Assembly: GCA_017506865.1 (NCBI GenBank)
Contig: JAFCMP010000029.1
Span: 186,001-250,000 of the forward strand
Reading direction: 5' to 3'
Source: Tribonema minus
Lineage: Eukaryota > Sar > Xanthophyceae > Tribonematales > Tribonemataceae
Length of the DNA: 64,000 bases
A program made the translations under genes and the position numbers. Below the pieces are notes generated by a model. The model was not told the DNA's origin and made no database searches. It was given only the letters and a program-made list of their open reading frames with translations. This document shows, one piece after another, positions 24 through 63,588 of this stretch. How positions within the stretch are numbered: position 1 is the stretch's first letter; the number at the start of each line of letters is the position of its first letter.

Positions 24-3000
24 TGGCGGGGAAGGTAGATGACGTCACCCTTCGGGGGTGTACTTGCGCTGCCCCTGAGGAGCATGGGAGTTGAAGAAAG
101 AGGGGGAGAGTCACAACACTTGCGGTTGTGCGTATCGGCGCGCGTGCAGGGTGGATGGATGTCATTGGCGGGGGTGTAAATGGCGCTGCCCCTGAGGACT
201 CCATTGAAGTTGAAGAAGGCAAGGAGAGTCACTGAATGGGCTGCTGTTTCAGTTCAAGGCGGAATGGTGAGCACACGGCGGCCTTGCGCGATCGGCGGAC
301 CGCACTGCCCCCCCGCCCCCCTCAACACACACACCGCCAGACTGCTGTTCATGGTTGCTTGCTGAGCCATGCGGTAGGGGTAGAGTTAGGGTTTGCGCTG
401 AACATATACGGCCGAGCTCTTGCACAATTGGCGAAACATTCGCGCCCCCCCCCTAAACCCTAAACCTAGTCGTAACCGTAACGTCGTTAGGCCTCATGGC
501 TGCTCTGTCACACGGGGACGCGGCCCGAGCAGGTCACAACGGCCAGCGCTGTGCACGCGCAGTGCTCAGGCACGCCACACGCTTACAAGCGTCGCGCGTT
601 GCAAGCTGCGGACGAGGCTGTGACGCATCGCCGCACCTCGCGGCAGTGCCGGCACCGCGGCGCGCTGCTGTCAACCATGTTCATACTTATCAGTCTTTAT
701 GCATGCTCAGCTCTGTGCAGGAGCACAGAAACAACGCCGGCTAGTGCACAAACCACCAGTAGCTGCAGCCCACCGCCGCACCTCGCGGCGTTGCCGACAC
801 CGTAGCCGTACGCCCACTCCAGCGACAGCGCGCACGCCGCAACGCTGTCTTTCCTCCCTCAAACTACATCCATGCGGAGCCTCGTGCATTGCAAACTGCA
901 GTAAACTCTGTGTGACAGATCAACCCACCTTGCGGCGTTGCTGGCGCTGTACCCGTATGCCCACTCCAGCGACAGCGCAAGCTTCTGAAGGCATCAAATG
1001 CCATGAAGACATGAACCCTAACACTAACCCTCGCCCATAAATCTAACCCTGCCCTAACCTACCGCCCTACCTTGCGGCGTTGCCAGCGCTGTAGCCGTAC
1101 GCCCACTCCAGCGACAGCGCGGACGGCGGCGCGCCGCGCTGCGGCCCGCCGCGCGGCAGCAGCGTCGGCTCCGTGAACGCCGCCGCGTTCTGCCACTGCG
1201 CCTGCGGCTCCAGCGTCTGTGCGTACACATACGTACATACCACAGGAGATGATGGTGAATAGCGAGTGCACCAGCCGCAGGGTGTGATGACATGCTGCTA
1301 GAGTAGGTCACAGGTGGTGCTTGTGTCAAGATTCACAGATGGTCGCATGCAGTTGGCGACGTGTGCGGGGCAATGCGGCGGCGCACTGCAGCGAAGATGC
1401 GCGCCAGCAGCAGCGTCAGCCTCGAAAAAGCGGCCGCGTTCTGCCACTGCGCTGGCGGTGCCAGCTTGTGCCGGCAGCAGGGCAACACTTGACGCGTCAG
1501 CTGCAGCCTGATGCTGCAACAACCGGCGGGTGTGAGTCGCAACTGCAATCACATTCATGAAAACCCTGTGCCTGGCCCCCTCACTGAGCAACCTGCATCT
1601 CTCTCCCGAAGCGAAGGCCCCTCCCTCAAAGGGGCCCCCTGACTGCCGCCCGCAAACAAAAACGTCAACATCATTATCACAACTTCAAGCGCCTACACGC
1701 ACCGAAGCGAGCCCCCTGGCCTTAATGGCGGCGGCCTCCGTGCACCCCGCCTCCAGGTCAACCACATACATACATGCCCTGTGCAAGGCTCCTCTCAAAG
1801 GGACCCGACGGCCGCCAACAGACAAAACTTCAACATCCGCATCACAACTTCATGCGCCTACCACCCATTCACGCACCGAAGCGAGCCCCCTGGACTCTAT
1901 GGCGGCGGCCTCCGTGCACCCCGCCTCCAGGTCTGTCGCCGCAACATACCCCTCTTCAGCACCCCCCTCTGCGACGTCAGTGCTCAGGGTCTGCCCCTGC
2001 GGCCCGCGCTAGCGACGACGGCGGCGGCAAAAAGACTTCAACATTCACCTCACAACTTCAAATGCCTGCATCAACCCCCCTCACCGAAGCAAGCCCCCTG
2101 GACTCGATGGCGGCGGCCTCCGCGCACCCTGCCTCAAGGTCCGTCGCCGCAACATACCCCTCTTCAGCGCCCCCCTCTGCGACGTCAGTGCTCAGGGCCT
2201 GCCCCCTGTGGCTCATGCTTGTGACGACGGCGGCGGCGTGCTTGTCGACGTGGTCGGGCCTGCGCGGGGGGGGTTCGGCGATGTCGCCTACATAGTCTAC
2301 CCAGCTGAGGAGCTCGGGGGCGGTGCGGCAGTAGTCTTCAAAGGCCTGCGGGGGGGGGGGGGGGGGGGGGGAGGGGGGGGGGTAATGGGGGGTTGGCGAT
2401 GCATGTGGTGCGGGGGGTACAGGGGGGTGGCGATGTATGTGGTGCGGCGGTGGTCTTCGAAGGCCTGCCGGCGGGGGGGGGAGGCGGGGGGGGGGGAGGG
2501 GGTACAGTGGGTTGCGATGCATGCGAATACGTGCTCATCGAGCATACATATTGCTCGTGTACTTTGACGCATGGACCGCTGTACTGTATCGCGCTGTGTG
2601 CGACCGTAGTGTAGAGGTGGCATGTATGTACACATACATGTACATGCGTGGCAACAGTGCCCATGAAGTTCGCCCTGCTGAACCGTACCCGGCGTTGCGC
2701 GGCAGCATTGGCCCAAAGGGCCCGTGGCAGTTGCAGCAGTGGCGCAGTCGCACTGCGGCACTTTCACAACGCTCGTGCACACTTGCAGTCTCCAAAAACT
2801 TGCATCATGATTCCGAGATCTTTCAAAATGGTCCGGCCCGACAGATGGGTGCACAGCAATCAATGAGCTTTTAGTGCTCTAACGCGGGTACTTCGCGCGA
2901 GCTGTGCTGTGCTGTCACAGGCGAATGGCTGAACCACATCCTGCGAGCTGCGCAGGAGTGCGCTGCTGAGGTAACACGGGGTGAATCAGGTATGTATACG

Positions 3001-6000
3001 CTGTACATACATGCCCCATACGTGCCCCCCAAGGGGTTCACACGCAACTGTACGTAACCGACTTGCGCAGGATCTGACGGCGCTCGGCCAAGCAGCACCC
3101 TCGGATGACCGTAGAGAAAGCACTGCTACATAGAGTGCATGGCAGCAACAGTGGACACTCTGATGCGACAGAAAGGTATCAGTACAACCCTGGCTGAAGC
3201 TCACTTGCACATGTGATCACATTGGAAGTTCTGACCGAACAGCACCCCTGGGATGACGGCATACGGAGAAACACCGCAAAAAGACACGATCTCGACAGTA
3301 ATGCGCACGCTGACGGGAAACAAGGGCAGCAACAGAACCACGCTGTAAACTGTGATCAAACCCACAATCCTGACCCTAGTCACTGCCGCTAACCCTAGGG
3401 TAGGCAGGTAGCTACACGCGCGTCGCGTCCACGGCTGCTCAACCGGACTGCCGCTAGGGTTAGGGTTAGGGTTAGGGTTAGGTATCACTGAAGCCCTGTA
3501 CGCCGCGCGTACCAGCGTGGCGAGGGCGCTTTACACTTGCAGCGTCTTGAGCTGACTCTGATGATGCGCATATACGCAGCGCTCATCCAAACCCTATGAT
3601 TAGGGTTAGGCCAGACCCTCGGACGTCTGTAGCCAAGGCACAGCTGCGAAAGCCCACCCAATAACGCACACACTCTACCAAGAAGAAAGGGCGGCAATGG
3701 TGCCTGAACCCCGTGATGACGTGTTGTCAACTCAAACATTTGTCCCTAGCCACCGTCGCTTGTCCGTATCGGGGGGTCAACTCTCACCTGCATGGTCATA
3801 GACTGCTCGTCCTCAGCGTACCGGGCCTGTGAACGCAAAACCAGGCGCACGAAGCAAGTGGTTAGCGTCACCTAATCGTACGCCCGCAGTGCGCCTCTCG
3901 AAAGCAGACGTGGAGCTGCAACTAACCCTCACCCTAACCCGAACCCTACACATGATGGCGCGCCGCAGATCAGGTATGCAAATTTTGATTTGAAAGCACG
4001 AGTATACATCAGAGGGGGGAGCTTGCTGCACGTTTCTGTGACGTTGAAAGACTGAACATTTCCGCACCAACAGCTGACTGCCACGGCGCACGTGTGTGCA
4101 ACGTTGGTGAACCATGTATGAGAAAAGGCTTTTCGTGGATGGCATCCGTGCGACACAGCAGATGACAACGTTGTGGTGCATGACACAGTCAGTGTATGCG
4201 CTATTGGGGTGTGGTACATATAGATACTTCCATGTCCTACTGGGCTGTGTACAATGCGGCGGCTGCACCTAAGCACACAAGAGCGGGTCTGTCTCGCGGT
4301 TTTCACAAGAACAATTCCACGGTAGTGCCTGCACAAAGCGCAAAGAAACAGGAGGTTACCAATGCGTGTCGACTCTGTTCTGCTCCTGGTGGACTGTGTG
4401 TACTCCTTATTTTGAAGATGTTGCAAGTAGAAACATTGGATACGGCTGTTGCTGGCCTTAGGGTTAGGGTTAGGGTTAGGCTGGCACCATCACCCCCCAG
4501 CAAATTGATAGAGTAAACTGTATTTGTGACCGCTGTAGTTAAAGAGGTGATCATGACAGCATAAGCCCCTGCTGTCTCCACCCCACAACGTGCCGTAAAG
4601 TGCCTCGTTCCATCTTGATTCTCAGGAATAGGGTTTAGGGTTGGGGTTGGGGTGAGTGCGCGCTGCGATTGGTGGAAGTTCACGAGACACGATGCAGATT
4701 CTGGTAGCAAGCTGGACGCCCCCATCTGAGCGTTTTCCCGCACTCAGCAAGCCTTGCTTCATTTACTCAATAAAGTAAATGAAGTACCTGCTAAGTGTTT
4801 TTAGTGAGCGGAAGCTTACGTGGCGCTCTGCCGCGGGTGATCGCTGCGATTGGCGGAAGTTCACAAGACGCCTGCAGATTATGGTAGCAAGCTGGACACC
4901 CCCATCTTGGCATTTTCGCGCACTAGGCAAGACTTGACTTGTTGATTTGTCTCACAAGTCAATGAAGTACTCGGCGGGCGCTTTCAGTGAGCGGAAGCTT
5001 ACGTGGCGTTCTGCCGCAGGCGCGCGCTGCGCCCCCTTCTTCTCCGCCCCCCTGTCGAAGGCCAGTCGAACGAGGGCCTCCAGCTCTGTCTCGAGGGGGG
5101 GGTCCACCCCAGTCAGTTTGGAGATGCCGCTGCGCACGATGGGGAGATGAGTGAGGGGGGTCGTTGATGTTGCGGGGCAAGGGATAGGGGTGGGGGTCTG
5201 TCCCTCTAGCTTGAAAGGCCACTGTATGTAAACAGGGGTTGTCAAATGAGGGAGCAAGGCTAGGTTCAAATAAGCACCAAGTGATCCACCAGCAAAAAAT
5301 CTCATCAATAGCAATATCTCATCAACGCTCAGGCTCCCGCCTTGCTCAAGCGCTAGGCATTTTCGTAGAAAAGCTGATGGCAAACTTCAACCACCCATCG
5401 GTGCTCCGCAGCCCCAGCACCACATCGCATCAGTGCTTTTTCTGCTCAGTGATTCTCTCTGACGTCTTGCGGAATTGTTATTCTGTAGTTACCAAGCTGA
5501 CGGCAACTGCAATTACCTGAGACTGCTGCGCAGCGCCAGCACCATCACGTCAGGCACCTGCTCTGTGATTTTCTCTGCCGTGTATGTAGGTATCAGGCTG
5601 ATGGCAACTTCAACTACCGACAGTGCTCCGCAGCGTCAGCCGCAGATGTCATCTGCGCCCTTGCTCAGTGATTCTGTTTGGTGTGCTCATGAATTACATT
5701 CAGGGTCAGAGATTGTTTAAGTGGTAAGTAGGTGCAGTAGTTGAGTTCGCTCTGATGTGCTTTCTTGTAATAAAAATTGCATTTAGGTACCCCAGCGAAG
5801 AGCAATCTTCAATTACCTGACAGTGCTCCGCAGCTAGCACCATCTCATCAACGATCTTACTCAGGGACTATCTCTGGTGTGGTTTTGAAGCTCACTTTGA
5901 AGTTATCCAACAGCAAACTTCAAATACCTGACAGTGCTCCGCAGCGCCAGCACCATCTCATCAGCGCTCAGGCGCCCGCTCTCGTCAAAGTCGTAGATGG

Positions 6001-11037: not shown

Positions 11038-14000
11038 ATCGTCGCCGATGCGTAATCGCCGCCGATGCGTAACTGCTGATGCGTAACTGCCGTGTAACTG
11101 CCGCGAGCCTTTCAAGCGCAACAGGTATCGCCGGAATGCGCTGCGGGCTCGGTGCCACCGCGGCAGTAGGCATTTGCTTGCTACCGCCCCAGTGCTGCGC
11201 AACTCATGTCGGCAGTTTGGACTTCAAGTATGTATGATATGACAGTTACGTGGCTGGCGAGCCCCATGCGCCAATGCACTGGCGCAGTGCATTCGTGTAA
11301 GTGCGTACTTGGGGGCTAATGGGGGGGGGGGGGGGGGGGGGGAGGGGGGGGAGTGCTCTCTCGACAAGCCTCTACATGTGTCCTTTTTGCTGCAGTCCTG
11401 TAGTTTCAGCTGCCGTGACGTCTCCGCTGTCTTTGTACGCGAGAGAGGTCTCCCGAGCAGCCTGTATGGCTGTACTACCAGCGCTCGAGGCAACTCAGGG
11501 CAGGGCGCTCGGTGCGCGCCGCCGCCCCCTGTATGTGCCTGCTTTTGTTGTTTTCAGTCGCGCGCGGTCACATTTGTGGCTGCACGCAGTACCGTACTTC
11601 TGTCAATTGGTGAGCCTTGAGCGCACCGCCGCGCCGCATTGCCTTGTGCAATGCACGTCGACGCTCGCTTCATGCGGGCGAACTCGAGTGGCAGTCGGCA
11701 ACGGCTGCCCTCAAGCACAGCAGCTGGCTCCCCAACTGTCACATGTGCATGCTTCTGCAGCACAGTGCAGTTGAATGAGATGTGTGCGAACACTTGCATG
11801 TGCTGATATCAAGTTCAAATTGAGACAGCATCTGAGCAGCGTTGTGCATTGCGTACACACTGTTGCATGATCTACGTACCGCTACGGGACCACGTGCCGT
11901 TGCGTTCTGCGACAATCTCTGTACATACATGATACTTCGAAGTATTTTATATGTACGTCTATGTATCTGTGTAATGGCACGCGCCTTCATCTCTACTTGG
12001 CAATGGCTACTGGTTGTGTTGCTTGTTGCCCTTTCTACCGTTGTCTGCCGCTGTTTTGCAAGTCTGCCCGTGGTTCCCAGCCATGTGCGCGGCGCATCAC
12101 AAATGGGCATCGCCGTGCCACGCTCACGCATCGCCTGCACGCTGCACTCTCGATAGTGTGCGCCCACGTGTTGTCGACGCAACGAATGCACCAAGTGGGT
12201 AGTTGTGTTGTCGCTGCATCTGGTAGTGTCATACAGGTACCACGATGTCATTGCATCGACAACACCTGGGCACACATTATGGCCAGCAACCCACCTGTTT
12301 TGACAAGGGGGGGGGGGTGGCACAGTCCCCAGCTAGCATGAATATATATATAAATTCCAGTCATGCGCTTGTGCGCCCAGGTGATGTCCGTCCAGTACCT
12401 CATTGCTAAACGCTACAGGGACTGAGAGTTGTTGCATGACAACGCCTGGTACAAAGTGACTTCATGCTGATCGGAGGTGAGTGACTCTCAAATTCTGGTC
12501 GAGTCGAGTGAGTCTTGGAGAAGTTGACCTACCGCTTTTCGTGGTGTGTGTGTGTGTGTGTGTGTGGGGGGGGGGGCATAGGGAAAGGGGGGGGGGGGGG
12601 GGGGGTGAAGCGCGTATCACAACAGCGGTTCCGCACATGCTGCCACCTAATCCTGACATGGTTCAGGACTGGGTGCCCAATACATGAACGAGATGGCCAT
12701 TGTCCTGGCGCACTGCGCACTTGTCACAACCAGGACTTATAAATAACAGACGGATCTTTTTAGTTGTGTGGCATTGCCTGTTAACCTAGGATTAGGGATA
12801 ACAGCAAAACTAACCAGTTATCCGCCGTTCCGAATGTAGAACCCATCTAATAATCTGAACGCAGTGCCAGGGTCTGGTCCGCTTTCACAAAAAAAAAAGA
12901 AAAAAAAATCTGGTATCGAGACGCTGCATCCGGGACCTGAGGCCTGCCTGAGACCGGAGATCCAGGAGCTGGCGCTGCTGGACCTTTTGGAGGACTCTTA
13001 ATCAATAATCTGGCCTGGGAGCTGCTGCTGTCGCCGCCTTGGCAGGCCGCCTCCTGAGCCGCACCATGAAGAGTTCAAAGAAGTATGGCACGGTAAGTGG
13101 CGAGATATCCCACCCTGGCTTGACGAATGTCACTCGAAATGCATTGTTACCACTGCCATCGGGTGTGTATGCTGCGCAATGGCGTGGGCCGCTTGGCGGT
13201 TGCATGTTTCAACGTGCGCAAATTCAGAGGTTTCTTTGGCCTTGGCGCGCTGTGCTCTCGTGCACTTGCCTTGCTCCTGAAACTGTGTACGCCTGGCGAC
13301 GTTATGATTCTGTCTGATTGTACTGCAGCAATTGGACAGCTGCGAACATGTCTATCGATTCGTGGGGGAAGGGGTGCATGTCGAGGTTGGCATCTCAATC
13401 TCAGTCGTTACTGATGCCAACCGCCGTTGCGTGCAAATGCTGGTGGCTGCCTCAGGTGATGAGCACCTCCAACATAGAGTCATTCTACCAGGGCGAAGGG
13501 GAGAACAAGGCGAAGTTCAACAGGCAAGATCGCTCAATGTGCCTCCCGCCTCAACCTGCGCTTGCTTGCTCGTTCCGTGTGGCAGTAAAACCCAGTGGGG
13601 AATGTGCACATGCTGCCTAACGAATGAAGACATGTGTTGCAATTGCAGCAAGAGCTACAGCAGTGTCCACTTTCTTAGCAAGACCATGTGCAATGTTCAG
13701 GTGAAGGGCTGCGTGCCTACGCAGTGGACAGTTGAAGTTGCCACAAAATCGAGGCTTGGAGGTTGTGAGTTCACTGTCATTGGAAATCGTTGAGCCAGCC
13801 TAAAATGAGCCGCATGCATGGCCTGGAAACTTGGTAATCAAGGACACATCACGTTGCAGCCATCGCCTCGTGCACCAACAGCACAGCAAATACGGTCAGC
13901 AAGTGCCATCTTGCGAACGCGAGCATCCATCACCATGACAGCACACGCATTGTACCCACGTACTGGTGTGATGATGCATGACATGCCGTCAAGCTGGTTC

Positions 14001-14331
14001 GCGTCGTACGTAGCGTTTCCCGCACCAACTTCGATGCACTGAGCGACCGCCAATTGCCAACATGCTGGTGAGTGCTCGCGGCACAAACCCACGAGTGCCG
14101 TCTTCACTGAACACCCCCTGCCTCCGTTGTCATGAACTGCACATCGAAGAGGCAGGCTTCTGTCGGCGCGGGGCAGAAGCTACCTAACCCCAACTCTCGC
14201 AGTGCTAGCCTAAACTAACCCTGACCTCCAATCCTTGATCTGCCCCTGCATCTCGAGGAGGGGCAGGCTTTTGTCAGCGGGGGCAGACACTAACTTCAAC
14301 TTCAAACCTAACTTCAAAGTCAAACCAGGTC
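11038..14331. other. Intergenic region between F-box and transporter genes
   Basis: It contains a G-run at 11320-11352, a (GT)n tract with G-runs at 12541-12605 and an A-rich tract at 12890-12909. There is a 153-codon plus-strand frame at 13332-13793 that lacks an ATG near its start and matches nothing I know. Around 14140-14175 and 14235-14290 a GAGGGGCAGGCTT segment is repeated, possibly a decayed 5' exon of the transporter. Confidence 0.45.
12541..12605 (+). repeat. (GT)n followed by poly-G tracts
   Basis: About 12 GT units are followed by a G-run, a short interruption and a G-run of about 18. This is a simple repeat. Confidence 0.85.
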
Positions 14332-14395
14332 TTCGTCTGTGGCCCCCGGCATGGTGACGAATCCGCTGAACCCGACAGACCAGAGCTTTCGTCAC
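14332..14395 (+). repeat. Decayed upstream copy of transporter exon 1 5' end
   Basis: It shares the acceptor and the segment coding [17 protein letters not shown] with the exon at 14437, then diverges. Confidence 0.7.
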
Positions 14396-14458
14396 AGACT
14401 AACGCAACTTCAATTCTAACTTCAACACTGACTCAGGTCTTCATCCGTGGGCCCCGGC

Positions 14459-17400
14459 ATGACGACAAACCCGCTGAACCCGACGGACCGGAGCCGGCGC
14501 GCGCTGTACGAGAGCCTGCCGTTCATCTCGGTGTACGGCATGCAGTACCGCGAGCAGAGCATTGCCAAGAGCCTGAGCCGCGTGAGCCTGGCGGACATGG
14601 GGGGGGCGATCAACGAGCAGGACGCGCTGCTGGCTAACGTGGATGTGGACGAGGTAAGTCGACTTGTTGTGTGTGCCTGCGCGCAGCGCCTGGGTTAAGA
14701 TTGTAACGTGCGTGAATGCTACCATGTTACAGTTCAGTAGGGTACTTGAGTAAGCACAGAAGCCTGGTGGACATGGGGGGGCGATCAATGAGCAGGACGC
14801 GCTGCTGGCCAACGTGGACGTGGATGAGGTAAGTCCGCTTGTGCTGCGCCGGCCGCGTTGCCCCGGTTGAGGTTTTGATGTGCGTAAGTACTACTGTCAT
14901 GACGGGTCAGTAGGGTACTTCAGAAAGCACAGAAGCCTGGCGGGCCAGGGGGGGGGCAATCAACGAGCAGGACGCGCTGCTGGCCAATGTTGATGTGGAT
15001 GAGGTACATACCCTAATCCTTAGTGCACTTGCGTGTGCCTGCTCGCATAGCCTGGGTCAAGTCCTGCTTCTAGTGCGTGATTACTGCCGTCATCTCGACT
15101 CAGGTACCACAAGCCTGGCGGGCAGGGGGGGGGGCGATCAACTAGCGGGACGCGCTGCCGGCTAACATGGGTGTAGTCGAAGCAACTGTTGTACCCGGTT
15201 GCATAACCTGTGTCACATACTGCTGTGCGTGTAGAACAACACATTGACAGGTCATCGTCATGCGCGACAGCCATGCTCAGCAGTCACCGCTGCGCACTGG
15301 GGCACTCCCATCCTGAGGTTGTGCGGATAGCTGACGCGTCCGCTCAGCGCGCTGAGCGCTCCTGTACATTCTGAGCGCTGCTGCACGCGCGGAGCGGTGC
15401 CACATTTAATGATCACTGCTGCAAGCACCGAGCTCTGCTGTGCAGGACGACTGTGCTGCTTGCGCATGATGTGCGCTGCTGCTGCTATACAGTGCCGTGC
15501 ACCGCTACCCCAGCTGAGCGCTGCTGCACGTGCGCCGAGCGCTGCTGCCTGTGCGGCGCGCTACTGTAAGTGCGGAGTTGCTGCTGGCTGCCGCAGCGCT
15601 CTGCTGCACGTGCTGACCGCTGCTCAGCTTGCTGACCGCTGCTGAACTTGCTGAGCTCTGCCGCTGCTGCGCAGGTGGTGCTGACGACGCCGCTGATGGC
15701 GGCGATCATGGTCGCGGTGATGCTCATGTTTCTCGTGGGGTACAACACGGGCGTCATGAACGCGGTGGAGCCCGTGGTGTTCCCGGGCCACAGCGTGACG
15801 GAGTGGTCGCTGGCGGTGGCGGTGTTTGCGGTGGGGGGGCCCTTTGGAGCGGTGCTGGCGGGCAAGGTGGGTACTTCAACTTGAAGTACATAAACGTAAT
15901 GCTCACTTCAACTTGAAGTACCTACCATGTGCTAAAATGGTGGCGGTGTTCGCGGTGGGGGGGCCCTTTGGAGCGGTGCTAGCGGGCAAGGTGGGTACTT
16001 TATCAATGAATGCTGTCATCATGGAATTTTAGTATCCTTCGTACACTATGACATGTCAGAACGTGACGGAGTGGTCGCTGGCCGTGGTGGTGTTCCCGGT
16101 GGAGGGGCTCTCGCGGAGCTTGCGGGCAAGGTGGGCACTTCAACTTGAAGTATATAACACATGTATGTTCACTTGAACTTGATTGACCTAACAGCTATGT
16201 GCTAAAGTGTTGGCGGTGTTTGCGGTGGGGGGGCCCTCTGGAGCAGGTAGGTCTTCACTTCAACTTCAATGAGTACCTGATAGCCCTACAGTAAAAGCGT
16301 ACAACAATGTTTGCGCGGTCTGCGATGGGGGGGCCCTCTGGAGCGGTGCTTGGCGGGCAAAATGGGTACTTCAACTTGAACTGCACAAAGCGTGCCAAAT
16401 TGGTGGGCGGTGTTTGCGGTGGGGGGGGGGCTTTACAGCGTGCTGGCAGGCACGGTATGTACTCCGTCATGAGGTACTCCAACTTGCAGTGAATAATAGT
16501 GTGGTATCGAGTTGCGGTTGCTTGTGGTCCAGTTAGTCAGTAGGCAGGCAAGGTCACAATGGTAGAACTTCACATCAACTTGAAGTGCCCAATAGCACGC
16601 CAGAATGTTGGCAGTGTTTACATTGGCGCTGGCGGACAAGGTGAGTCTTCATTCCAAATTGAAGCACCTACTGTAATACCTCATTGGCAGTGTTTGGGGG
16701 GGGGGGGGTGCTTTTGGAAAGGGCAAGGGCAGATGGTTACTTCAACTTGAAGTTCATAACATGATCAAATGGTGGCGTTCATTTGCGGTCGAGGGGCCCT
16801 CTCGAGCGGTGCTGGCAAGCAGGGTGGCACCTCAACTTGGGTGGGAGATGCGTTTGGTGCGTGGGGTTCTGGCCGGCAGTGTGCCCCCTTTTTCTACGCA
16901 TGCGTAATGTGCTGTATTCGTCACAGCTTGGCCTGTGCTGGTGCAGTGCCTGCATGCGTTGTGCCGCACTAGGAGTGTGACGCACACAACAGCATGACTT
17001 GTGTTGAGTGGTTCAGTGATACCTGCAAGTAGTGGCCCCTGCGAAAATCAGCACTTGCTACGCGGTGCTTGGACTGTTTTTGTCAAGTTTGCGGTACATG
17101 TAGCGGCACCGAAACGGTGAAACCGTTGCACTGGTTGCAGTGGCGGTGTTTTTGGCAGAGGGGGGGGGGAGGGGGGCACAGAGCGGTTATGGCACGCAAG
17201 GTGCTTATCAATGCGCTGCAAGCACAATCTTATGCATGACACGATATGAACAACACAGTGGCAAGCTGGTGTGACTGCCGTGTTGCACCACATGAAGTTA
17301 GTACATAGTTGAACTACCGAAGTTGTGGGCGCAGCACAATGCAGCGCTGGCTGGCAGCTGTGTTGTGAGTGGTGGTGGTGGTGTGGGGGAGGGGAGGGAG

Positions 17401-54300: not shown

Positions 54301-57300
54301 CCTCTGCTGCTGCAGAAAAGCAGCGCTCAAGGCCGCCAAGGCGTTCCGCGCTGCGCAGTCAGCCAAGACGACGGCGGCAGCGGCGGACGCGTCCGGCAGC
54401 GGCGGCGGCGCAGACGATGCCGGCTCCAACAGTCAGGTGAGAATTGAAGGTATCATGTTGAAGCTGTTGTTGCTGCGCGTCGTGATGCTGCGACATCGGC
54501 AGTCGGGCGGTAGTTTGTTGTTGAGCGCGGACGATGCCGGCGGCGGCAGTCAGGTGAGAGTTGCAGTTACCACGATCACCCAGGCATCGCCATGCGCATA
54601 ATTATCAGACGTTGCTGTTCTGTCCTTGAGCATTAGGGGTACATCAAGGGCCGTTTTCTGGCGCAGGAGCTGGCGCGGCACATTTCACCTCCCGACGTAG
54701 CTCAACACAAGTAGAGCGCCACTTCGACCGGTGGGCCGAGCTCCAGCCCTAGCCACTCCGTAACCCTCATTCTGGCCCCAACCCAAGAGCTTGTGTCTGA
54801 CACATTCAGAACGCGCGGCTATGCATTTGCTCAGTGCGCATCACACTTCCAGGAGGGCACCCGGTGGTGGTAGAGGAGACACGTCGGTCACAAGTCACGA
54901 GCGCACGCATCGCTCACTTGGTGCGCACTGCCACGTGTTCCTCACTGATTGACAGTTCCAGGAGCTGCTGGTGGTGGAGGAAGAAGAGGCAGTGCGGCGC
55001 CACACGGCTCAGCTGAAAAAGGACGAAGCCGCATATGCTGAGGAGCGCAGAGCCCTGGATGCGCGAAAGGTGGGTAGAGTCAGGGTCGGAGTCGAGGTCA
55101 GGAAGCGACACAGCGCGGGCAGGCGCGCGGGTCTGCAACTGCTTTATCGTGGTCTTCAGTGAGCGTACACATCTGCAACAAGTTCTTCAAGTGGTTGTGA
55201 CGTCACCCCGCTCAGCTCAAAAAGCAAGAAGCCGCGTTTGCCGAGGAGCGCCGAGCCGGGGAGGCGCGCAAGGTGGGTAGAGTCAGAGTCAAGGTCAGGG
55301 TCGGGATCAGGAGAGCGACACCATCGCGGGCAGGCGTGTGACTCTGCACGCGCTTCATTCTGGTACTCTGCATGCATTCACGTCTGACGAATCTGCGGTT
55401 TGTGAGCGGTTATCTGCAAGTGCTTTATTCTGGTACATACTCTGCATGCATCCACATCCAAACGAGTCTTCAGTTTGGAAGCTGTTGCGTCGCCGCACGG
55501 TTGGGCAGAAGCAGGACGTAACGGCGTTCGCCGAGGAGCGCAGAGCGCTGGAGGCGCGCAATGTTCAATAGAGTCAGACTCAGAGTCAGGGTCAGCATGC
55601 GAGGGTGTAGGGGCAGACATACCCGCCTTGTGAGTGTGCGCCCGCACGCCTCACGCGCGGCATTATGTGATGATTCTTGCACTTGAAGTAGAAGTATCAA
55701 ATTCAAAAGTTCACTGTATGTAGTTGATGATATCAAATTAAAGTATTCTCACTGTATTCACCGATACGTACCTGCCCCCCCCCGCGCACGCGCAGGCGCG
55801 GCACATGCGCGAGCTGCGGCGGGCCGCGTGCGAGGACCAGAGGTGCGTCATACTTGAAGTTGAAGTAACCCTCCGGGGTGTCTGTCTGCCAGCGCCGCCG
55901 GCGCTGATGCTGCATCAGGACGCCACGGCACGCGGCGCGCGAGCGCTGACTTCACGCGCATGTACGCGGCGCTGAGCGCTGTCATCGCACTTGCATACAT
56001 ACCTACATGCAGTGTGGAGCGCTGTCACAGGGCGCTGAGCGCTGTCGTGTGCGCAGTGATGAGGCGCGGCAAGCTGCAGTGAAACTGCTCTGCGGTGCGG
56101 CCCTGCGGTCCGTCACCCTGGCATATGCGTAGGTTCTGCGCCGATGCTGCTGACTCTGACCCCGGCAGTTCATCGGCGCTAACCCCAACCCTAACCTTGC
56201 CCCCTGGCATGTGAGAAGTGGTCAGCCCGCTCATGCGCGGAATGTGCGTTGACACGCGTGTAAAGTGTGCAAGAGGTGTGCGCTGGTGCTGCCGATATCA
56301 ATCCAGATGCCTCGTCGTTCTGTTGCCACCGTGTGGCGTTGCGCGTGTGAGTCCTGCATTGATGCTAGCGACCCCCCCCCCCCCCCCTCCCCCCTCTCCC
56401 CTCGTTTCGCATCACTGCGTGCGCGAGACGTGTGTGGACGCTTGCGCAAGCGTCCAGAGCATGAGACGCCTGTGAATCCTCCCCCCCCTCCCCCTTGTTC
56501 GACACCTGCCGTGTGGCACTGCTCAGTCTGCCGGTGCGCAAACGTGCGTGAACGCACGCGCCGAGAGCATGAGCCGCCTGTGTCGCTGTTGACTCCCCCC
56601 CCCCCCCCCCCCCCCTGCCTTCTGTACTGCTGATGTTACCCCCCCCCCCCCCCTGTGTGGCATTGCTCAGTCCGCTGGTGCGCAAGACGTGCGTGGACGC
56701 GTGCGCGGAGGGCCCGCGCGGTCGCTACGTGCTGCTGAACCTGCTCGGCAAGGGCGGCTTCAGCGAGGTCTGGCGCGCTTACGACGTGCGCGGCCTCGGC
56801 GAGGTGGCCGTCAAGGTGAGCGCAACTTCTGCGAACTGTGCAGTGTCACTTGTTTGTGCACGTGTATGAGTCATTTGTCAATGTTTTCAACTGCACACGC
56901 TTCGAAGCACATTGCTATGTCGAGGTGGCCGTCAGGTGAGCGCAGCTTCTGATGTGTAGGGTCTGTGCAGTATAACTGATGTATGCATACATGTGCATCT
57001 ATATATGATACACATACATGGCCATCAGCGAGGTCTGGCGCGCGAATTACGTGCGCGGCCTCGTTGAGGCGGCGGTCAAGGTGAGCGCAGTTTACATGCC
57101 TGCTGACCATAAGGCCGAATCGACATCTCTCCTCAAGTTGTACACTTCAGTTTTCTTGGTTTATGCTACCTGCTGTTAGAAACACGGTGATAGGTTTTTT
57201 GTACCTCTGGAATTGCTTGAATGATGAATTAGAGCCCCTCCTAAGTGCAAGTATTTGTACATAAATTCCATGATGATATCAGCAGCTGCAAAGCACCTGC

Positions 57301-60300
57301 TCGCTGTATCTGCTCGCTATCGAACTAATTGTCAAGTGCATGCTGCATGTGGCTGCCCCCCTCCTTACAAATGCACCAGTGTGATTCCGGTTGGAGCGAT
57401 GTATTGAGCCGATTCTCAGGTGCATGCTGCATGTGGCTGCCCCCCCCCCCCCCCCCCCCCCCTCCCCCTTCAGATCCACCAGTTTGATTCCAATTGGAGC
57501 GATGCGCGCCGCACCAGCTTTGTGCGGCACGCCACGCGAGAGTACAAGATTCAGAAGGTGAACCTGCTGATGGTCAATGCATGCACTTGAGGTGGACATG
57601 ATGGCACGGGCGCCCTTGTACCTTTTACTGATTCTCGCTCAGGGTGCGAAAGAGCCCAGATGAATGGTATCTCAGCTTGCTGTACGGAATCTACACGTCG
57701 TGTGACAGTCTGAAAGTGTCTCACTGACTACCACTCAAACGCCGCCGCCGCCAAATGGCATCTCGATATCCCCTCCTACGTCCTCGTCCATGTGCGCCCC
57801 CCTCGTGTACCTGCGCAATGCTGACATGCTGCGCTCGGGGTTTGGGGTTAAGCGCAGGTCAAAGGCTAGGGTTAGGTGGGTACAAATCAGATTCAGTGAA
57901 CGCTGAAGGTGAACTGCGCATTGACGTACTCTGCAAGGACAATCTGAGCACGCGGCCGTTTTCGCACTGTGTAATGCGGATGAATTGCGCTCAGGGTTTG
58001 GGTGCAGAGCTAAGGTGAGGGGCAGGGAAAGGATCAAACTCAGCGCTGGTTGTGCTGTGCAATGCGCGGGTACAGCATTCAGAAGGTGTCTTGCGCAGCA
58101 AAGGTGAACTGCGCATTGCCATACTCTGCGAGGAAATGATATACTTCGAAGTATATGCATCTTGATGATGTATGATTATAAATTTCATTACGTCTTTAAA
58201 ATGTATATACTTGCAAGTACAGTATTTACGACAATGCGGTCGTTTCCGCACTGCGTAAGGTGTACGGCAAGGGTTATGGGTAGGAAGGATTAGGGGGAGG
58301 TTGAAGCTGGTACAAAAATTGGTACGGATAGAGCGGTGTAACACCCCGTGTACGGGTCATCTCTGATGGGTACGACTCTCGGAGGAGCTTTCAGTGCAAC
58401 GTGGTATTGTGGTCCAGCCATGTGCAGCTGCTGGACACGTTGGCGCTCCGCGCAATCAGCTCTGTTTGTTGACGAATTTTCTTTGTGATAGCTGACCTGA
58501 CACCCACATGAATGACACGTGTTCTGGTATGCATTTGCTGTGAGTTGCCGCATGTGCTGTGCTACAAGTTCCACACGGGCGGGTGCGGCGTGCAGCTGCT
58601 GAACCAAATCAATACTTCAAGAAGTACGACGATGCCATCTTCAATTATTCTTGTTGATTCCAGAATTCCATCACAACCAGCATAAGTACTTGGTACTTGA
58701 TGAACTTTCGCTTTAGGCGCGAAGACGCCCAGTTGGTTGACGTCCGATGTACTACTCACGAAGCGAGGCTTGCTTCAAGCACTTACATGTTGTTGATCGC
58801 TGTGCGTTGCCCCCCCCCCCCCCCCCCCCGCCCCTCCCCTCCCTCAAGGCCCTGCGGCACGAGCGCGTGGTGCGTCTATTAGACTGCTTCGAGATTACAC
58901 ACTCCAGCTTTGCCACCGTCCTGGAGCTGTGCAACGGCGGCGACCTCGATGAGTTGCTCAAGCAGAACCGCTGCATACCGGAAAAGGTGAGCGCTGATCA
59001 CTTGCGGTTGCGCAGAAGTTGAAGTTGCTCGCGACACACTGGCATTTACAGTTATCGCGATGCAGTTGCGCTTATATGGGGCCGGTTACGGCGGTTACCT
59101 GTTTTTGGAACCGCGCCACCTCAAAGCGTCTCCCACCGCCGCTGCAAACAACAGGCGAAAACGCACGTGTGGAAAGAAAGGCTGTGCAGCATGCACAGAA
59201 GTGTTGTATGGATTTATGATGGGTGCAGGTGCATCAGCATGTAGAAGTGTGTGAAGTGTATTTGCTGCGAGATTCTTTACGCTGCCAATGCGGCGCTGCA
59301 GCAGCAGTGCTCAGATTCACACAAGCCGCTGCAAACCGCCAATTGAAGGTCTATGTATTGTGAGCCGTGAACTTCGTCGAAGGATTCCACTGTGTGCTTT
59401 GGGATGTTGGCTGATTTGTGATGGGTGGACCGGATACACGTGCTGGCTGCGTATATCCCGTCAGTTGCAGCCGTGCAAGTTTCTGTGAAGTCATGCCTAG
59501 ATGAGTGTGCAATGTTATGTTGCCACGCATTGGCGCAGCAGGCTGTGAGCTTGCACAGGATGCACGCTTTCTGTAACACATATAATCACACAACATGCGT
59601 GCACCACACCGGATGCGCAGTCCGTTTTGCTCCGAACTGTGAGGGGCCTGCGTTACATTCACGACCTCGCCGCATGGCAGCTGTGCATACATGACAACAT
59701 CTCATCTGTACACACTTACTATCTTGCATGCATATCTGCATGCATACCTACATGCATACATGCTTGTGCCTTGCGATACTCCTGCAGATTGTGAGCTGCC
59801 TATGCCACAAGCTCTCAGCACACGGCGATTGCTTGTTTCCACCCATGTACTTCAATCCAAAGTTCATCCCCACATACGCTTCAAAGCATAGACATACCCA
59901 CATGCGTACGTGCGTGTGCCACGCAGGCACACGATCCATACCTCTACAAATCGTGCGCTATACGAACTCGGCAAACGGCGAACTTGCATACATGATGATG
60001 CATGTTTCTAACTCGTACATGTATACTTGCATGCATACCTGCATGCGCACACGCACGTGCGCATGCTAAGACGGCAAGCGCCAGCAAGTGACACGTTCGC
60101 TACGCATATATAGCCTAATGCGCACCTGCATGCGAACGTGCGTGCGCCATCCGCAGGACGCGCGATTGATACTGCTGCAAATTGTCAGCGGCCTGCGTTA
60201 CGTGAGCTCGCCGCACGGCGACCGCGCATACATGCTCATGTACATCAAATCAAGTACCCACCTCAATATGCACATTCTTGATGCCAATGTACAGCAAATC

Positions 60301-63300
60301 AAGTACCTTACTTCAATATGCACCTTCTTGATGCATGCGTGCGTGCGCCATGATGCAGGACGCGCGATCGATACTGCTGCAAATCGTCAGCGGCCTGCGC
60401 TACATGAGCTCGCCGCACGGCGACCGCGCCGCAATTATTCACTACGACCTAAAACCGGGGAACATTCTCTTCGATGTCAACGGCGACGTCAAGATCACGG
60501 ACTTTGGACTCAGCAAGATTGTTCCAGACGAAGGTGAGACCAGGCGCTTGGCCGTGAGTGCTGCCGCTTTGTGATTGTATTGGCCACGAGTGCTGCCAGT
60601 TTGCTCATTCAAGCTGCAAGTGTTTTTTCATCCTCGTTGCCACAGTGACTTTGCAAATGCTGGATACTGTAGGCGAGGTCAGGTGCAGCGGCTGTGGCCT
60701 ATTAAGTTATTAACACAGTGCATGAACATGTGCGTCATGTACTTTTTATTAATTCTTGCTCAGGGCGCGAAAAAGCCCAGATGATTGGCATCTAGCTGTA
60801 CGGAATCTACATGTCGTTTGACAGTCTGAAAGTGTCGTAACGACAACCACTCAAACGCCGCCGCCGCCAAATGGCATCTCGGGATCTACTTGAATGAGCC
60901 AGCTCATTGTACTTGAATTATCGATGGTCGAGGGCGAGGCCAGGGTCAGGGTTCAGGGCAAGTTAGGGTTAGGATTAGATTTTGGGTGAGAGTTAGGTGT
61001 CGAGCCCAGCCCTAAGTCTGTCTGCCGCGTGCAAGCACTCACACGTACTGGTGCAGTTGCCCGGTGTTTGGCGGCATGCCGACACTGGAGGTGGCCATTG
61101 TATGTGCTCCCTTCAGTACTGCGCTGAACACATGTGTTGATATATGAACATGTGATAATATGTGAACAGCATCTTTACTGCGCAGGCTGTGAGCTTAACA
61201 GCTGCGCCGTGCGACCGTCTCCAGCCGCTGCGGCTCTCACAATAGGCAACTTGGCAGCACGCAAATGTTGTGTGTGTCGAGTGCTGCTGCCTTTTTTTCT
61301 TGTCTGAGCTAGGGTTGATGGTCTGTCAGATTGGCTGTCGGCGCTCACCACCCTTGCATGTGCTCCCTTCAGTACTGTAAGGATCACGTGAATACATGCA
61401 AACAGCATCTTTACTGCGCATGCGGTGTGCTCATGAGCTTAGGGTTAGGGTTAGGGCCGTGCGGCCATCGCCCTCGCTTTGCTCGTGCCGCGCGTGGCCG
61501 CGACGGTCGGCAGTGCGGCTGCAATGGAAATGGCTTCTCACTGCTTGTGCACGCAGAGCGCCTTAGGGTTAGGGTGAGGGTTAGGGTTAGGGTTAGGGTT
61601 AGGGTTAGGGTTGCCGCAGTGCGCAGAGAGTTAGGGTTAGGTTTAGGAGTAGGGCTGCGGCCCCCGTGGAAGTCCCGTGGAAGTCAGGGCCAGTCGTGAC
61701 TTCTGCGCGCCCGAGCAGAGGAAGGCAGTGACAAAAAGTGGTTGGTGTGCCTTATGGGCACCAAATAACAAATTGTTGACGACAACCTCATGTACATGTA
61801 CGCTCACTGCAGGCGGCGGCGTTGGCGACATGACCAGCATGGAGCTCACCAGCCAGGGTGCGGGAACGCTATTTTACTTGCCGCCTGAAACGTTCGTCAC
61901 CGGCAGCAACGCTCCGCGCATCAGCAGCCGCAACAAGGTGAAGTTCACTTGTGGGTAAGCATGTACGGGGGTGGTATGCTGGTAGCGCTCAGACAAGCAG
62001 CGCGCATGATTGAGAATCGTGCAAACTTTCGTGCCCGTATGCAAATGGTGTCCTGCTGGTAGTACACACACTGCAGGACAAGGCGAATCGCCTGCCGTGC
62101 CCGCATAGAAACGGTGGTTTCGACGCTGACGCTGCGGGCACTGCAGCGGCAGTGGCTCGGCCGGCGCGACACTTATGAAGCGTAAAAGCAAACTTGCAGC
62201 AAGATCCTCTTCCATACTGCACAAAGCCCTGTCCACGGGTCTCATGCACCAGACAGTTGGTCTCGCTGTGTGCGCCTTTGAGAAGGAGCTGCAGCAGCAC
62301 TTGTCAACCGCAGCTTTGAGGCCGTACTTGGAAGTGGTGCGCACCAAACCCGCTGCCACACACGCCTGTGGAGCGCCTCAAGCGATGTTTGACGTGGGCA
62401 CAAAGCATGCATATTTGCGGCACACGTTGCTTTCAGAGTGTGGAGCATTCCTGGTAGTCTGGGACGAGCTCAGGATCTTTTGCGAGTTGCTCTTTGAGTG
62501 CACTGGTTGATAATGGTTTTCAACTTCACTTCGCGTGTGCCTGGCGCTGCAGATCGATGTGTGGAGCCTGGGCGTCATCTTCTACCAGATGCTTTACGGG
62601 GTGCGCCCCTTTGGCGAGGGCCAGACGCAGGTGAGGTCGCACATACATACCCTACCCTTGCACCATTTTATAAATATTGTTGTCGTCCTTGCCGACGTCG
62701 GCGCTCTCTGTGAACTTGTTGTTGCCGAGATGGAGGATCGTGACGACGACTCTCCGGTCGTCGCACTCTCTGTGTCGTCACACGTGTGTCGCAAACCTCA
62801 GGTTACTTGTACGAGGTGACGTGCCACTTTGACAATTCAAGTTGAGGGCGCACTTCATTTGACAACCAGATCGGGTTGTGTACAGATCTGCGACAAGCCA
62901 GCACTCTCCGCATGCCGCCCTGCCCCTCTCGGTCTGCTCCTTGGATACTCGAAACGGACAGCGTGGGACGGCACACCTGAGCGCAAGCGCGTTGGCAGGG
63001 CTGCGAGTGATCGCGGTTTCACGTGCGCGTTCACGCCAGGCACACTCCCGTTTTCCGCACAGCTCGACGTCACTTCAGCTCTTGAAAACTTCAACACAGC
63101 TCACCCCCCCACCGGCCTACCACCTGACCCCTCCCACACCCCACCCCCCCCCGAATTCCGCCACCCCGTGCGCAGGAAGCCATCCTACGCGAGGGCACCA
63201 TGCTGCGCGCGACGTCCGTCGCCTTCCCCGCTGCCGGCGCCGCCGCGGCCGTCTCCGAGGAGGCCAAGGCGTTCATCATTGCGTGCCTTACGCACAGCCA

Positions 63301-63367
63301 GGCGGAGCGCCCCGATGTGCAGCAGCTGTGCGACCACCCATACCTGAGCCGCGGCGCCGGGAGATGA
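45330..63367 (+). CDS. TLK: Tousled-like serine/threonine kinase, 15 exons, 844 aa
   Basis: Exons: 45330-46295, 49155-49207, 50675-50762, 52762-52887, 53490-53578, 54316-54436, 54962-55069, 55796-55842, 56671-56815, 57474-57557, 58849-58986, 60359-60533, 61813-61937, 62553-62630, 63176-63367. The phases agree throughout, and the intron after 53578 has a GC donor. Residues 1-322 are low-complexity Ala/Gly with a basic patch (NKRKRG) and two motifs, IDAYF (190) and LQGYF (249); animal TLKs have a similar ISDYF. Residues 323-532 are coiled coil. The kinase domain has GKGGFSEV (559-566), the VAVK lysine 581, alpha-C Glu604 in [13 protein letters not shown] (683-690), DFG (703-705), [10 protein letters not shown] and [12 protein letters not shown] and the SQGAGT activation loop are diagnostic of TLKs, which act in the nucleus on the histone chaperone ASF1 during S phase. 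The start at 45330 was chosen over 45207 because the upstream residues look like 5' leader. Confidence 0.93.
46316..47089 (+). mobile_element. Reverse-transcriptase fragment, Penelope-like or related, frameshifted, in kinase intron 1
   Basis: The translation contains [17 protein letters not shown] (RT motif 4 region) and RYIDDILA (catalytic YIDD). After a shift to the -1 frame near 46705-46712 it continues with [21 protein letters not shown] and SQLYRFTRI, and stops at 47089. That order matches a widespread protist reverse-transcriptase type close to Penelope-like elements. The N-terminal part and any GIY-YIG endonuclease are missing, so this is a 5'-truncated, frameshifted relic. The stretch is markedly AT-rich compared with the GC-rich exon just upstream, which points to a separate origin. 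The first half is in frame with kinase exon 1, so unspliced RNA would encode a fusion reaching 46721. Confidence 0.7.
47090..47660 (+). other. AT-rich, structured stretch after the reverse-transcriptase relic
   Basis: After the relic's stop the sequence stays AT-rich to about 47480. Short perfect hairpins are visible: TCACCCC with GGGGTGA at 47271-47292, AGGTG with CACCT near 47549-47563, and CTAGC with GCTAG near 47564-47582. These could be the 3' end of the element or a structured RNA. I cannot assign a class. Confidence 0.35.
47786..48022 (+). repeat. Short dispersed element R1, copy 2
   Basis: This near-identical twin of copy 1 lies in kinase intron 1 downstream of the reverse-transcriptase relic. 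Read on the minus strand, its right end encodes [18 protein letters not shown] then a stop. The same peptide is kept in copies 1 and 4 and is recognisable in copy 3. Confidence 0.75.
49300..49955 (+). repeat. Array of about six downstream copies of TLK exon 2
   Basis: Copies at about 49300-49350, 49435-49462, 49528-49572, 49660-49702, 49796-49842 and 49903-49950 repeat the part coding [13 protein letters not shown] and the donor. Linkers are rich in GACAGTGCTCA words. Confidence 0.8.
50540..50585 (+). repeat. Upstream copy of TLK exon 3 5' end
   Basis: GCGCGTGCAGGGTGGAGG recurs about 130 bp before the exon acceptor at 50674. Confidence 0.65.
52170..52335 (-). repeat. Short dispersed element R1, copy 4 (inverted)
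   Basis: It is the reverse complement of copies 1-3, including the AAAAGCTTGCACACAGAAGT end shared with copy 3. It lies in kinase intron 3 and is bounded by decayed copies of exon 4. Confidence 0.7.
52411..52470 (+). repeat. Interstitial telomere repeat (TTAGGG)n, about 9 units
   Basis: Near-perfect TTAGGG units are joined directly to a truncated copy of TLK exon 4. Confidence 0.95.
53059..53095. repeat. Head-to-head telomere repeats
   Basis: TTAGGG units run directly into CCCTAA units, forming a palindromic junction in TLK intron 4. Confidence 0.95.
53579..53960 (+). repeat. About 110-bp tandem repeat starting at TLK exon 5 donor
   Basis: Three to four units share GGAGCGTCCATGTTGAAGTC-like, ACATGCAAGAG and AATCAACTCATGATCA words and begin at the exon edge. 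Confidence 0.8.
54514..54560 (+). repeat. Downstream copy of TLK exon 6 3' end
   Basis: It repeats GACGATGCCGGC...CAGTCAG and a GTGAGA donor about 80 bp after the exon. Confidence 0.8.
55205..55600 (+). repeat. Two downstream copies of TLK exon 7 3' end
   Basis: At 55210-55275 and 55503-55563 the part coding AxFAEERRAxEAR and the donor or its remnant recur, each followed by the GAGTCAGAGTC-type intron words of the true exon. Confidence 0.8.
56370..56655 (+). repeat. Two upstream copies of TLK exon 9 5' end, with poly-C tracts
   Basis: At about 56408-56450 and 56520-56560 the part coding VRKTCVDAC recurs in decayed form. Poly-C tracts at 56372-56387, 56594-56615 and 56638-56653 precede each copy and the true acceptor. 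Confidence 0.75.
56900..57090 (+). repeat. Two downstream copies of TLK exon 9 3' end
   Basis: At 56916-56942 (short) and 57028-57090 the part coding SEVWRAxYVRGL and the GTGAGCGCAG donor recur. Confidence 0.8.
57355..57422 (+). repeat. Upstream copy of TLK exon 10 5' end
   Basis: It is a decayed version of the segment coding [10 protein letters not shown], about 110 bp before the exon. Confidence 0.7.
57618..57805 (-). mobile_element. 5'-truncated LINE-like element (copy B) in kinase intron 10
   Basis: It matches copy A (19163-19330) over about 180 bp with scattered substitutions, including the coding end EMPFGGGGV and the 3' untranslated part. It is truncated about 20 codons before the stop. 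Confidence 0.65.
59640..60235 (+). repeat. Array of about four upstream copies of TLK exon 12 5' end
   Basis: Copies near 59640, 59783, 59927 and 60155 resemble the acceptor and the part coding [15 protein letters not shown]. The last is almost intact. Linkers are rich in ATGCATAC and ACATAC words. Confidence 0.8.
60739..60886 (-). mobile_element. 5'-truncated LINE-like element (copy C) in kinase intron 12
   Basis: It is nearly identical to copy A from the 3' end up to the last nine codons of the reading frame, where it is truncated. It is closer to A than B is, so A and C are probably the more recent insertions. Confidence 0.65.
61563..61612 (+). repeat. Interstitial telomere repeat (TTAGGG)n, about 8 units
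   Basis: It lies in TLK intron 12. A shorter tract is at 61439-61456, and a degenerate one at 61630-61645. Confidence 0.95.
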
Positions 63368-63588
63368 CACAGATGACCATCGTGCTACTTCAACTTGAAG
63401 TACGGGGTCATGCTTGAAGTATCATGTCAGGAGAAGCGCCCCGGCGTGCCAGCAGCTGTGCGACCACCCGTACCTGAGCCGCTGCGCCGGGAGATGACAC
63501 GGTCGTGCTACTTCAACTTGAAGTTTCTATTTGAATGTGCGCGTCCCCGGGGGTCGGCGTTCACCGCGGCGCGTACGGGTGACAGAGC
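63368..63588 (+). repeat. Region after TLK stop with a copy of the last exon end
   Basis: At 63425-63500 the end of the last exon including the stop codon is repeated with small changes. Both copies are followed by ACTTCAACTTGAAGT. Confidence 0.8.

Follow-up and report, generated by a model that had tools for sequence, protein, structure and literature searches.

Orphan exon ends in the introns of Tribonema minus: probable products of small local tandem duplications

Intron size is commonly ascribed to transposons. A 64,000-nucleotide stretch of the Tribonema minus genome (contig JAFCMP010000029.1, positions 186,001 to 250,000; G000:C29:186001-250000 in our coordinates; the window from here on) raises the question of whether introns can also grow out of the exons beside them. 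The introns of its sugar transporter gene and its Tousled-like kinase (TLK) gene are crowded with imperfect copies of neighbouring exon ends, most with the splice site still attached. We followed these orphan exon ends through both genes and through 16 others of the same 158-Mb, 554-contig assembly, and found that the side on which a copy lies predicts which splice site it carries. Small local tandem duplications, with breakpoints in an exon and its adjoining intron, probably lengthen T. minus introns in this way.

Orphan exon ends and their orientation

The final set holds 81 exons of 18 genes (61 acceptors and 60 donors; 20 exons in the window and 61 elsewhere). Around them lie 100 local direct copies, scored within 2.5 kb at E<=1e-3 with low-complexity ones discarded, and in 72 the splice site is present. 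Forty-two of these site-bearing copies lie downstream of their exon and carry its 3' part with the donor, and 30 lie upstream and carry the acceptor with the exon's 5' part; there were no upstream copies with a donor, no downstream copies with an acceptor and none with both sites. They are spread over 36 exon-sides, 28 exons and nine genes (2 of 2 in the window, 2 of 4 chaperonins, 3 of 6 kinesins and 2 of 6 kinases), with up to nine per exon, identities of 72-97.5% (median 86%) and aligned lengths of 40-124 bp (10th to 90th percentile). When the same exons were compared with flanks at other loci, 5862 comparisons gave 43 junction-bearing matches, or 0.6 per 81 exons, divided between allowed (24) and forbidden (19) classes. 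Local inverted copies in the final set amounted to one internal match and no junction-bearing ones. The positions of direct copies internal to the exon agree with the rule of the site-bearing ones: all six upstream copies are centred within the first 30% of the exon, and 20 of 22 downstream copies past 0.5, the other two at 0.48 and 0.36. At the same threshold, the 20 window exons have 41 copies at 13 exons (17 downstream with the donor, 15 upstream with the acceptor, 9 internal), none against the rule and none with both sites.

The initial annotation of the window, made by eye, had described duplicated exon ends with their splice sites, the directional rule and the lack of copies with both sites, and aligning the copies and tabulating them by site bears out all three. 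A self-comparison of the window, simple repeats included, likewise shows direct pairs to be local (218, median offset 451 bp) and inverted pairs distant (93, median 26 kb). That most exons have copies describes the window, where 13 of 20 have a copy of some kind and 12 a site-bearing one, but not the other loci, where 16 of 61 exons have a site-bearing copy. The term genome-wide needs similar narrowing, since other genes share the pattern but only 7 of the 16 tested outside the window do so; over the whole set 9 of 18 genes show it, a wide but uneven spread.

Exon borders in the window came from a purpose-written protein-to-genome spliced aligner, run with the deposited T. minus protein P0001 for the transporter and with homologues for TLK. 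The joined transporter segments match a deposited Tribonema minus protein at 94% with the whole query covered, and give Pfam Sugar_tr at 1.8e-75. The kinase segments match a T. minus kinase-like protein at 84% over 81% of the query, and we call the gene TLK because several relatives among the protein matches are named tousled-like kinase. Most of its borders are concordant among five homologues (not all agree at 54956, 55069, 55842, 56671 and 61813), and the alignment of one homologue, P0144, stops short of the last exon.

Genes and exons, with strand:
13066..26329, +, sugar transporter gene (SLC2-like), 11 exons, from spliced alignment of P0001
13066-13092, 13456-13523, 14437-14653, 15675-15866, 18921-19139, 20379-20558, +, transporter exons 1-6, P0001 alignment
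21635-21682, 23009-23087, 23773-23989, 24913-25138, 26078-26329, +, transporter exons 7-11, P0001 alignment
54956..63364, +, TLK gene, conserved exons (5' exons not fixed), from five homologues and deposited P0121
54956-55069, 55796-55842, 56671-56815, 57474-57557, 58849-58986, +, first five conserved TLK exons, spliced alignments
60359-60533, 61813-61937, 62553-62630, 63176-63364, +, last four conserved TLK exons, spliced alignments

The coordinates and identities of individual copies below come from a looser scan of the window (E<=1e-2; 45 rows). Its one donor row for the ninth TLK exon belongs to the last coding exon, which has no known donor.

Copies at transporter exons (position, strand, side of the exon, exon end copied, state of the site, identity):
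14289..14386, +, upstream, exon 3 acceptor side, AG kept, 80%
14761..14894, +, downstream, exon 3 donor side, GT kept, 80%
14934..15061, +, downstream, exon 3 donor side, GT kept, 77%
15939..16000, +, downstream, exon 4 donor side, GT kept, 97%
16062..16216, +, downstream, exon 4 donor side, GT kept, 81%
16318..16389, +, downstream, exon 4 donor side, GT lost (AT), 88%
16406..16477, +, downstream, exon 4 donor side, GT kept, 79%
16625..16651, +, downstream, exon 4 donor side, GT kept, short, 86%, E 8.5e-4
16685..16759, +, downstream, exon 4 donor side, GT lost (AT), 77%
16771..16839, +, downstream, exon 4 donor side, GT kept, 81%
18383..18467, +, upstream, exon 5 acceptor side, AG kept, 83%
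18550..18613, +, upstream, exon 5 acceptor side, AG lost (CG), 86%
18699..18827, +, upstream, exon 5 acceptor side, AG kept, 91%
19696..19739, +, downstream, exon 5 donor side, GT kept, 93%
20038..20105, +, upstream, exon 6 acceptor side, AG kept, 93%
20210..20230, +, upstream, exon 6 acceptor side, AG kept, short, 90%, E 8.2e-4
20654..20801, +, downstream, exon 6 donor side, GT kept, 82%
20873..20915, +, downstream, exon 6 donor side, GT kept, 88%
22435..22475, +, upstream, exon 8 acceptor side, AG kept, 85%
22857..22893, +, upstream, exon 8 acceptor side, AG kept, 84%
23452..23587, +, upstream, exon 9 acceptor side, AG kept, 79%
23595..23676, +, upstream, exon 9 acceptor side, AG kept, 83%
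24127..24208, +, downstream, exon 9 donor side, GT kept, 94%
24254..24281, +, downstream, exon 9 donor side, GT kept, short, 89%
24611..24686, +, upstream, exon 10 acceptor side, AG kept, 88%
24752..24853, +, upstream, exon 10 acceptor side, AG kept, 91%
25904..25973, +, upstream, exon 11 acceptor side, AG kept, 93%, 99-bp spacer to the exon

Copies at TLK exons:
55201..55348, +, downstream, exon 54956-55069 donor side, GT kept, 79%
55486..55602, +, downstream, exon 54956-55069 donor side, GT lost (TT), 74%
56511..56568, +, upstream, exon 56671-56815 acceptor side, AG kept, 85%
56921..56951, +, downstream, exon 56671-56815 donor side, GT kept, 94%
57025..57089, +, downstream, exon 56671-56815 donor side, GT kept, 88%
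57368..57401, +, upstream, exon 57474-57557 acceptor side, AG lost (AA), 85%
60137..60227, +, upstream, exon 60359-60533 acceptor side, AG kept, 92%, an exon in deposited P0121
63428..63524, +, copy of the 3' end of the last coding exon, no known donor, 86%

Genes outside the window were a non-random choice from three Pfam families, found by exon-by-exon Pfam matches in the genome: chaperonins (7 of some 10 loci), kinesins (7 of some 31, compactness favoured) and kinases (10 loci with split matches). Their GT-AG introns were set by reading frame, profile position, codon bias and splice score, with junction limits (score >=7, HMM gap error <=2) that were chosen after the list had been seen. Among the 24 loci with at least two anchors, five (L007, L023, L024, L027, L029) gave no accepted junction, and three are omitted from the final table, L001 for its repeat context and L006 and L009 for implausible junctions; an earlier set of 85 exons included these three. 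All five Pfam-placed introns of CCT-gamma also appear when the deposited T. minus protein P0241 and two homologues are aligned to the gene. Overlapping matches hinting at copies at L021, L027 and L028 were visible before selection; without the 16 site-bearing copies of L021 the rule still holds for 56 of 56.

Local duplication as the source of the copies

In the process that we favour, small local tandem duplications would arise along T. minus genes with steps mostly of 90-280 bp; the 72 steps measured between successive copies have a median of 144 bp (quartiles 112-182, 10th to 90th percentile 88-275). Where the breakpoints fall one within an exon and one within the neighbouring intron, the exon body and a working splice site would remain on one copy, and the second copy would become an orphan within the intron. 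Each event would add one unit to the intron, repeated events would build arrays, and the orphans would then decay largely as non-coding DNA. Spaced copies would also have started as contiguous tandems, and the mutational step may be a microhomology-mediated or slippage-type duplication. The initial annotation had proposed the same pair of breakpoints, and the local direct duplications in several genes support it.

A unit that runs from the exon interior into the downstream intron leaves the exon body joined to the first copy, so that the orphan lies downstream with a donor; a unit that begins in the upstream intron and ends inside the exon leaves the orphan upstream with an acceptor. The directional rule thus follows from geometry alone and is no evidence of selection, contrary to the earlier suggestion that it marks the survival of splice-neutral events only. 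Of that suggestion there remains a modest hint in the absence of copies with both sites, which whole-exon duplications would leave and which selection may have removed. From the observed steps (those of at least 400 bp omitted) and the exon lengths, whole-exon units should make up 11.8% of border-crossing units. That would be 7.0 among the 59 copies at the 40 exons with both borders known, or 3.2 among 27 exon-sides, and none was seen (P 0.0006 by copies, 0.034 by exon-sides). The latter value is the fairer one because copies in one array are not independent. In the earlier set, 2.7 to 5.4 were expected, with P of 0.003 by copies, 0.029 when weighted to copy-bearing exons and 0.057 by exon-sides.

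A repeat census of 352.7 kb (the window and 34 further loci of the same genome, among them L011-L020, fetched with one exon anchor each and used for the census only; low-complexity pairs discarded) points to a process that makes local direct repeats, with 378 direct and 8 inverted pairs less than 1.5 kb apart. Of the 46 pairs with 90% identity or more (length >=40, offset <1.5 kb), eight are contiguous, with a gap of at most 11 bp or an overlap; among five read at their edges, three overlap, by 3, 2 and 6 bp, and two are separated by 11 and 7 bp. One tandem has a 456-bp unit that is 100% identical. In a minisatellite, units of one fixed period would abut head to tail. By eye, the CCT-gamma arrays do run head to tail, each unit comprising the exon 3' end, the donor and roughly 40-60 bp of intron; over the 72 steps of all genes the step varies (88-275 bp from 10th to 90th percentile), and 38 of the 46 high-identity pairs are spaced. 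Donor and acceptor copies include similar lengths of intron (p 0.33).

Certain short motifs were compared with these repeats as candidate hot spots of duplication. ACTTCAA/TTGAAGT occurs 336 times where 90 are expected. Between 25 and 35% of the occurrences of ACTTCAA/TTGAAGT, CAGCGCTC and CAGTGCTC fall within local repeats, as do 25% of intron bases and 14% of all bases, and 21-27% lie within 20 bp of a repeat edge against 11% of all bases, a comparison that has no intron-only baseline. Over all loci, the near-palindromic ACTTCAACTTGAAGT (8 exact occurrences against 0.0 expected) and CAGTGCTCAG/CAGCGCTCAG are both strongly over-represented, and they are about twice as common near repeat edges as bases overall.

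The contribution to intron length can be gauged from the 60 introns with placed borders (median 669 bp), in which 24.7% of bases lie in local repeats. Repeat coverage rises with intron length (rho 0.48, p 1e-4), from means of 4-9% in introns below 600 bp to 26-34% in longer ones. Local repeats make up 26% of the window and 8% of the 20 kinase loci, so the window is not an average piece of the genome. That duplication is ongoing, as the initial annotation held, is plausible from copies of up to 97.5% identity and the identical 456-bp units. L001, taken up for a haplotype comparison, lies in a stretch that recurs on other contigs and has one local repeat pair. Kinase genes are shared as near-identical matches by L001 (contig C144), C223 and C278, though C485 is not listed for the same gene; L001 matches C223 at 93% over 7.2 kb and C485 at 100% over 4.9 kb. 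These related contigs may be haplotigs, a segmental duplicate or an inserted element.

Decay, decoy sites and deposited gene models

The exon-derived parts of the orphans decay without regard to the reading frame. In the 71 rule-obeying copies of the earlier set, from which all decay and site-retention figures are taken, 34 of the 35 indel runs have lengths not divisible by three. The first, second and third codon positions show 9.9, 9.7 and 15.7% mismatches, as would be expected when a freely decaying copy is compared with an exon changing mainly at third positions. The splice dinucleotides persist, with GT intact in 35 of 40 copies and AG in 26 of 31, so the supply of decoy sites that had been anticipated is present, to judge from sequence, for potential use. 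Among the orphan sites, 27 of the 40 donors and 14 of the 28 acceptors score no lower than the 10th percentile of functional sites; the median orphan scores below its parent for both donors (7.98 and 11.09) and acceptors (5.74 and 6.43). No purging of decoy sites is visible in the 71 copies, although the definition of a site-bearing copy itself favours intact sites.

Two of the three deposited models checked use exon-attached sites throughout: the transporter in all 10 introns and CCT-gamma in all 8. In the third, TLK P0121, the orphan at 60137-60227 is used as an exon from an acceptor at 60156, where the five homologues all use 60358. The model thereby repeats a 12-residue segment ahead of the catalytic loop (window 60137-60240), and an annotation or prediction error is likelier than real use. 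Annotators should be warned that an orphan copy sits inside this deposited kinase model. As a separate observation, 14 of 59 exons in multi-exon genes start with GT (AG/GT at the acceptor), as intron gain at proto-splice sites would leave.

The rest of the window holds three further coding stretches, whose exon borders could not be fixed by homology and which are excluded from the copy counts. One has ankyrin repeats (with an F-box, by eye), one has EF-hands, and one is without a Pfam match and coiled-coil-like by eye. At 46300-46721, the frame that follows an alanine/glycine-rich stretch looks reverse-transcriptase-like by eye (YIDDIL), and the whole frame has no Pfam match. Rfam at the gathering threshold found nothing. 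The largest palindrome in the self-comparison is a 620-bp stretch (30770-31389), which matches its reverse complement at 82.9%. Five mutually matching tracts (3452-3482, 22384-22422, 23153-23212, 52410-52464 and 61562-61612) read as TTAGGG/CCCTAA-like, that is, telomere-like, from the sequence at 52410 and 61570 and from k-mers. Two families of short dispersed repeats, about 150-235 bp long and with copies 81-97% alike, also emerge from the self-comparison:
10456-10645, 42631-42865, 47788-48022, 52164-52336, first family
19162-19342, 57617-57802, 60738-60886, second family

Alternative explanations and known systems

Several results weigh against local tandem duplication in its simplest form. 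Spacers of 46-700 bp separate 38 of the 46 pairs with identity of 90% or more, though some of these are non-neighbouring members of one array. With contiguity among pairs at least 88% identical taken as a ratio of length to offset of at least 0.85, none of the 25 exon-involving pairs in the tested genes is contiguous, against 5 of 14 other pairs there and 6 of 21 elsewhere. Given this low contiguity we infer the duplication mechanism rather than observe it, and spaced exon copies require a further step. Intron flanks are also too poor: in the 24 copies with exon identity of at least 92%, flank identities range over the distance bins from 0.64 to 0.72 (null 0.55-0.61), but a simulation of neutral tandem duplication under the same detection gives about 0.90 (donor-type copies only, intron part 50-120 bp). 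For the 21 final-set copies that include 35 bp or more of exon, identity is 0.95 in the exon, 0.61 in the intron and 0.37 in unrelated flanks; copies below 86% identity show no such gap (observed 0.68-0.84, simulated 0.67-0.69). A single clean tandem event does not explain the spaced pairs and poor flanks. Half of the 18 genes lack any site-bearing copy, the correlation with intron length may come partly from the greater room in long introns, and the earlier set held one exception to the rule (78% over 45 bp, E 2.9e-4), at L009, a doubtful gene model.

The flank gap could reflect conversion from exon to orphan, selection on the copies, or an origin as spaced copies containing little intron that were later rearranged. 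We regard it as conceivable, if doubtful, that gene conversion from the functional exon keeps renewing the orphan ends, or that selection on splicing maintains them, and that the decoy stock can in turn convert the exon. Each exon would then be surrounded by a self-renewing stock of decoy splice sites whose exon part stays near-identical while the intron part drifts. Mismatch clustering in 53 copies, a test for conversion, gave p 0.018 for dispersion and p 0.39 for the longest clean run.

The spaced pairs are also what would be seen if a mobile element or introner had inserted at exon ends with long target-site duplications, the spacer being the element, since all 38 have the form copy, spacer, copy. 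The spacers of transporter exon 11 (99 bp) and TLK exon 60359, however, the two tested, matched only themselves in the genome (the search tool skips simple repeats and very common words), the supposed target duplications are long and variable at 40-124 bp where some introner families have 3-9 bp (PMC9860276), and arrays with up to nine orphans would be unexpected, which leaves insertion an improbable source. With both tested spacers single-copy and site-bearing matches elsewhere as rare as in the comparison with other loci, the copies do not group with introners. Nor did the 59 copies at exons with both borders known include any with acceptor and donor, as tandem duplication of whole exons would give.

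It is likewise unlikely that the orphans are functional, as alternative exons or splicing regulators kept by selection. Their exon parts are better preserved than the intron flanks, their splice dinucleotides are intact in 61 of 71 copies against 76% for control dinucleotides, and one is an exon of the deposited TLK model; but the definition of the class favours intact sites, the sites score below those of their parents, the indels are nearly all frame-breaking, divergence is similar at first and second codon positions, and the TLK copy would double part of a conserved kinase domain and is skipped by all five homologues. An assembly artefact or haplotype collapse could account for the identical 456-bp tandem and for near-identical stretches in some contigs. 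As an explanation of the pattern as a whole it is refuted by the divergence of the copies, which carry frame-breaking indels and obey the same rule in independent genes, and it is scarcely credible here.

Local tandem duplication, then, is the explanation we prefer, and it has close relatives. That introns can be gained by tandem genomic duplication is accepted (PMC3443670); such duplication is similarly local within a gene, doubles splice motifs and leaves the surplus to be spliced out. There, a duplicated exonic AGGT yields a new intron, whereas here an existing border is crossed and an existing intron lengthened; of the new-intron type we saw no case, in that none of the 72 copies has both sites and homologues splice at exon-attached sites, although no search was made for examples in the rest of the genome. 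In the potato RdRp gene (PMC4974935), a duplication spans one intron-exon boundary and inherits the 3' splice site, as in T. minus, but in one case and with a new intron and inserted exon sequence, against 72 copies in 9 of 18 genes; the same text notes an 83-bp tandem duplication inside an intron. In Drosophila, too, coding sequence that contains proto-splice sites has undergone regional tandem duplication; PMC2891723 attributes 5 of 31 near intron pairs to tandem duplication of partial exons and concerns new intron positions, not orphan exon-end arrays. Introners, too, change intron content genome-wide (PMC9860276), but as mobile families, some with short target duplications, whereas the sequences here are locus-specific as far as tested. 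The T. minus genome offers a direct measurement of boundary-crossing duplication, of its selective filter and of the spliceosome's tolerance of near-perfect decoys. Since tandem duplication is known to create introns, and the open-access listings searched, judged by titles and the starts of abstracts, gave no recognisable report of such arrays as a widespread means of intron lengthening, we regard orphan exon-end arrays as a variant of a known process.

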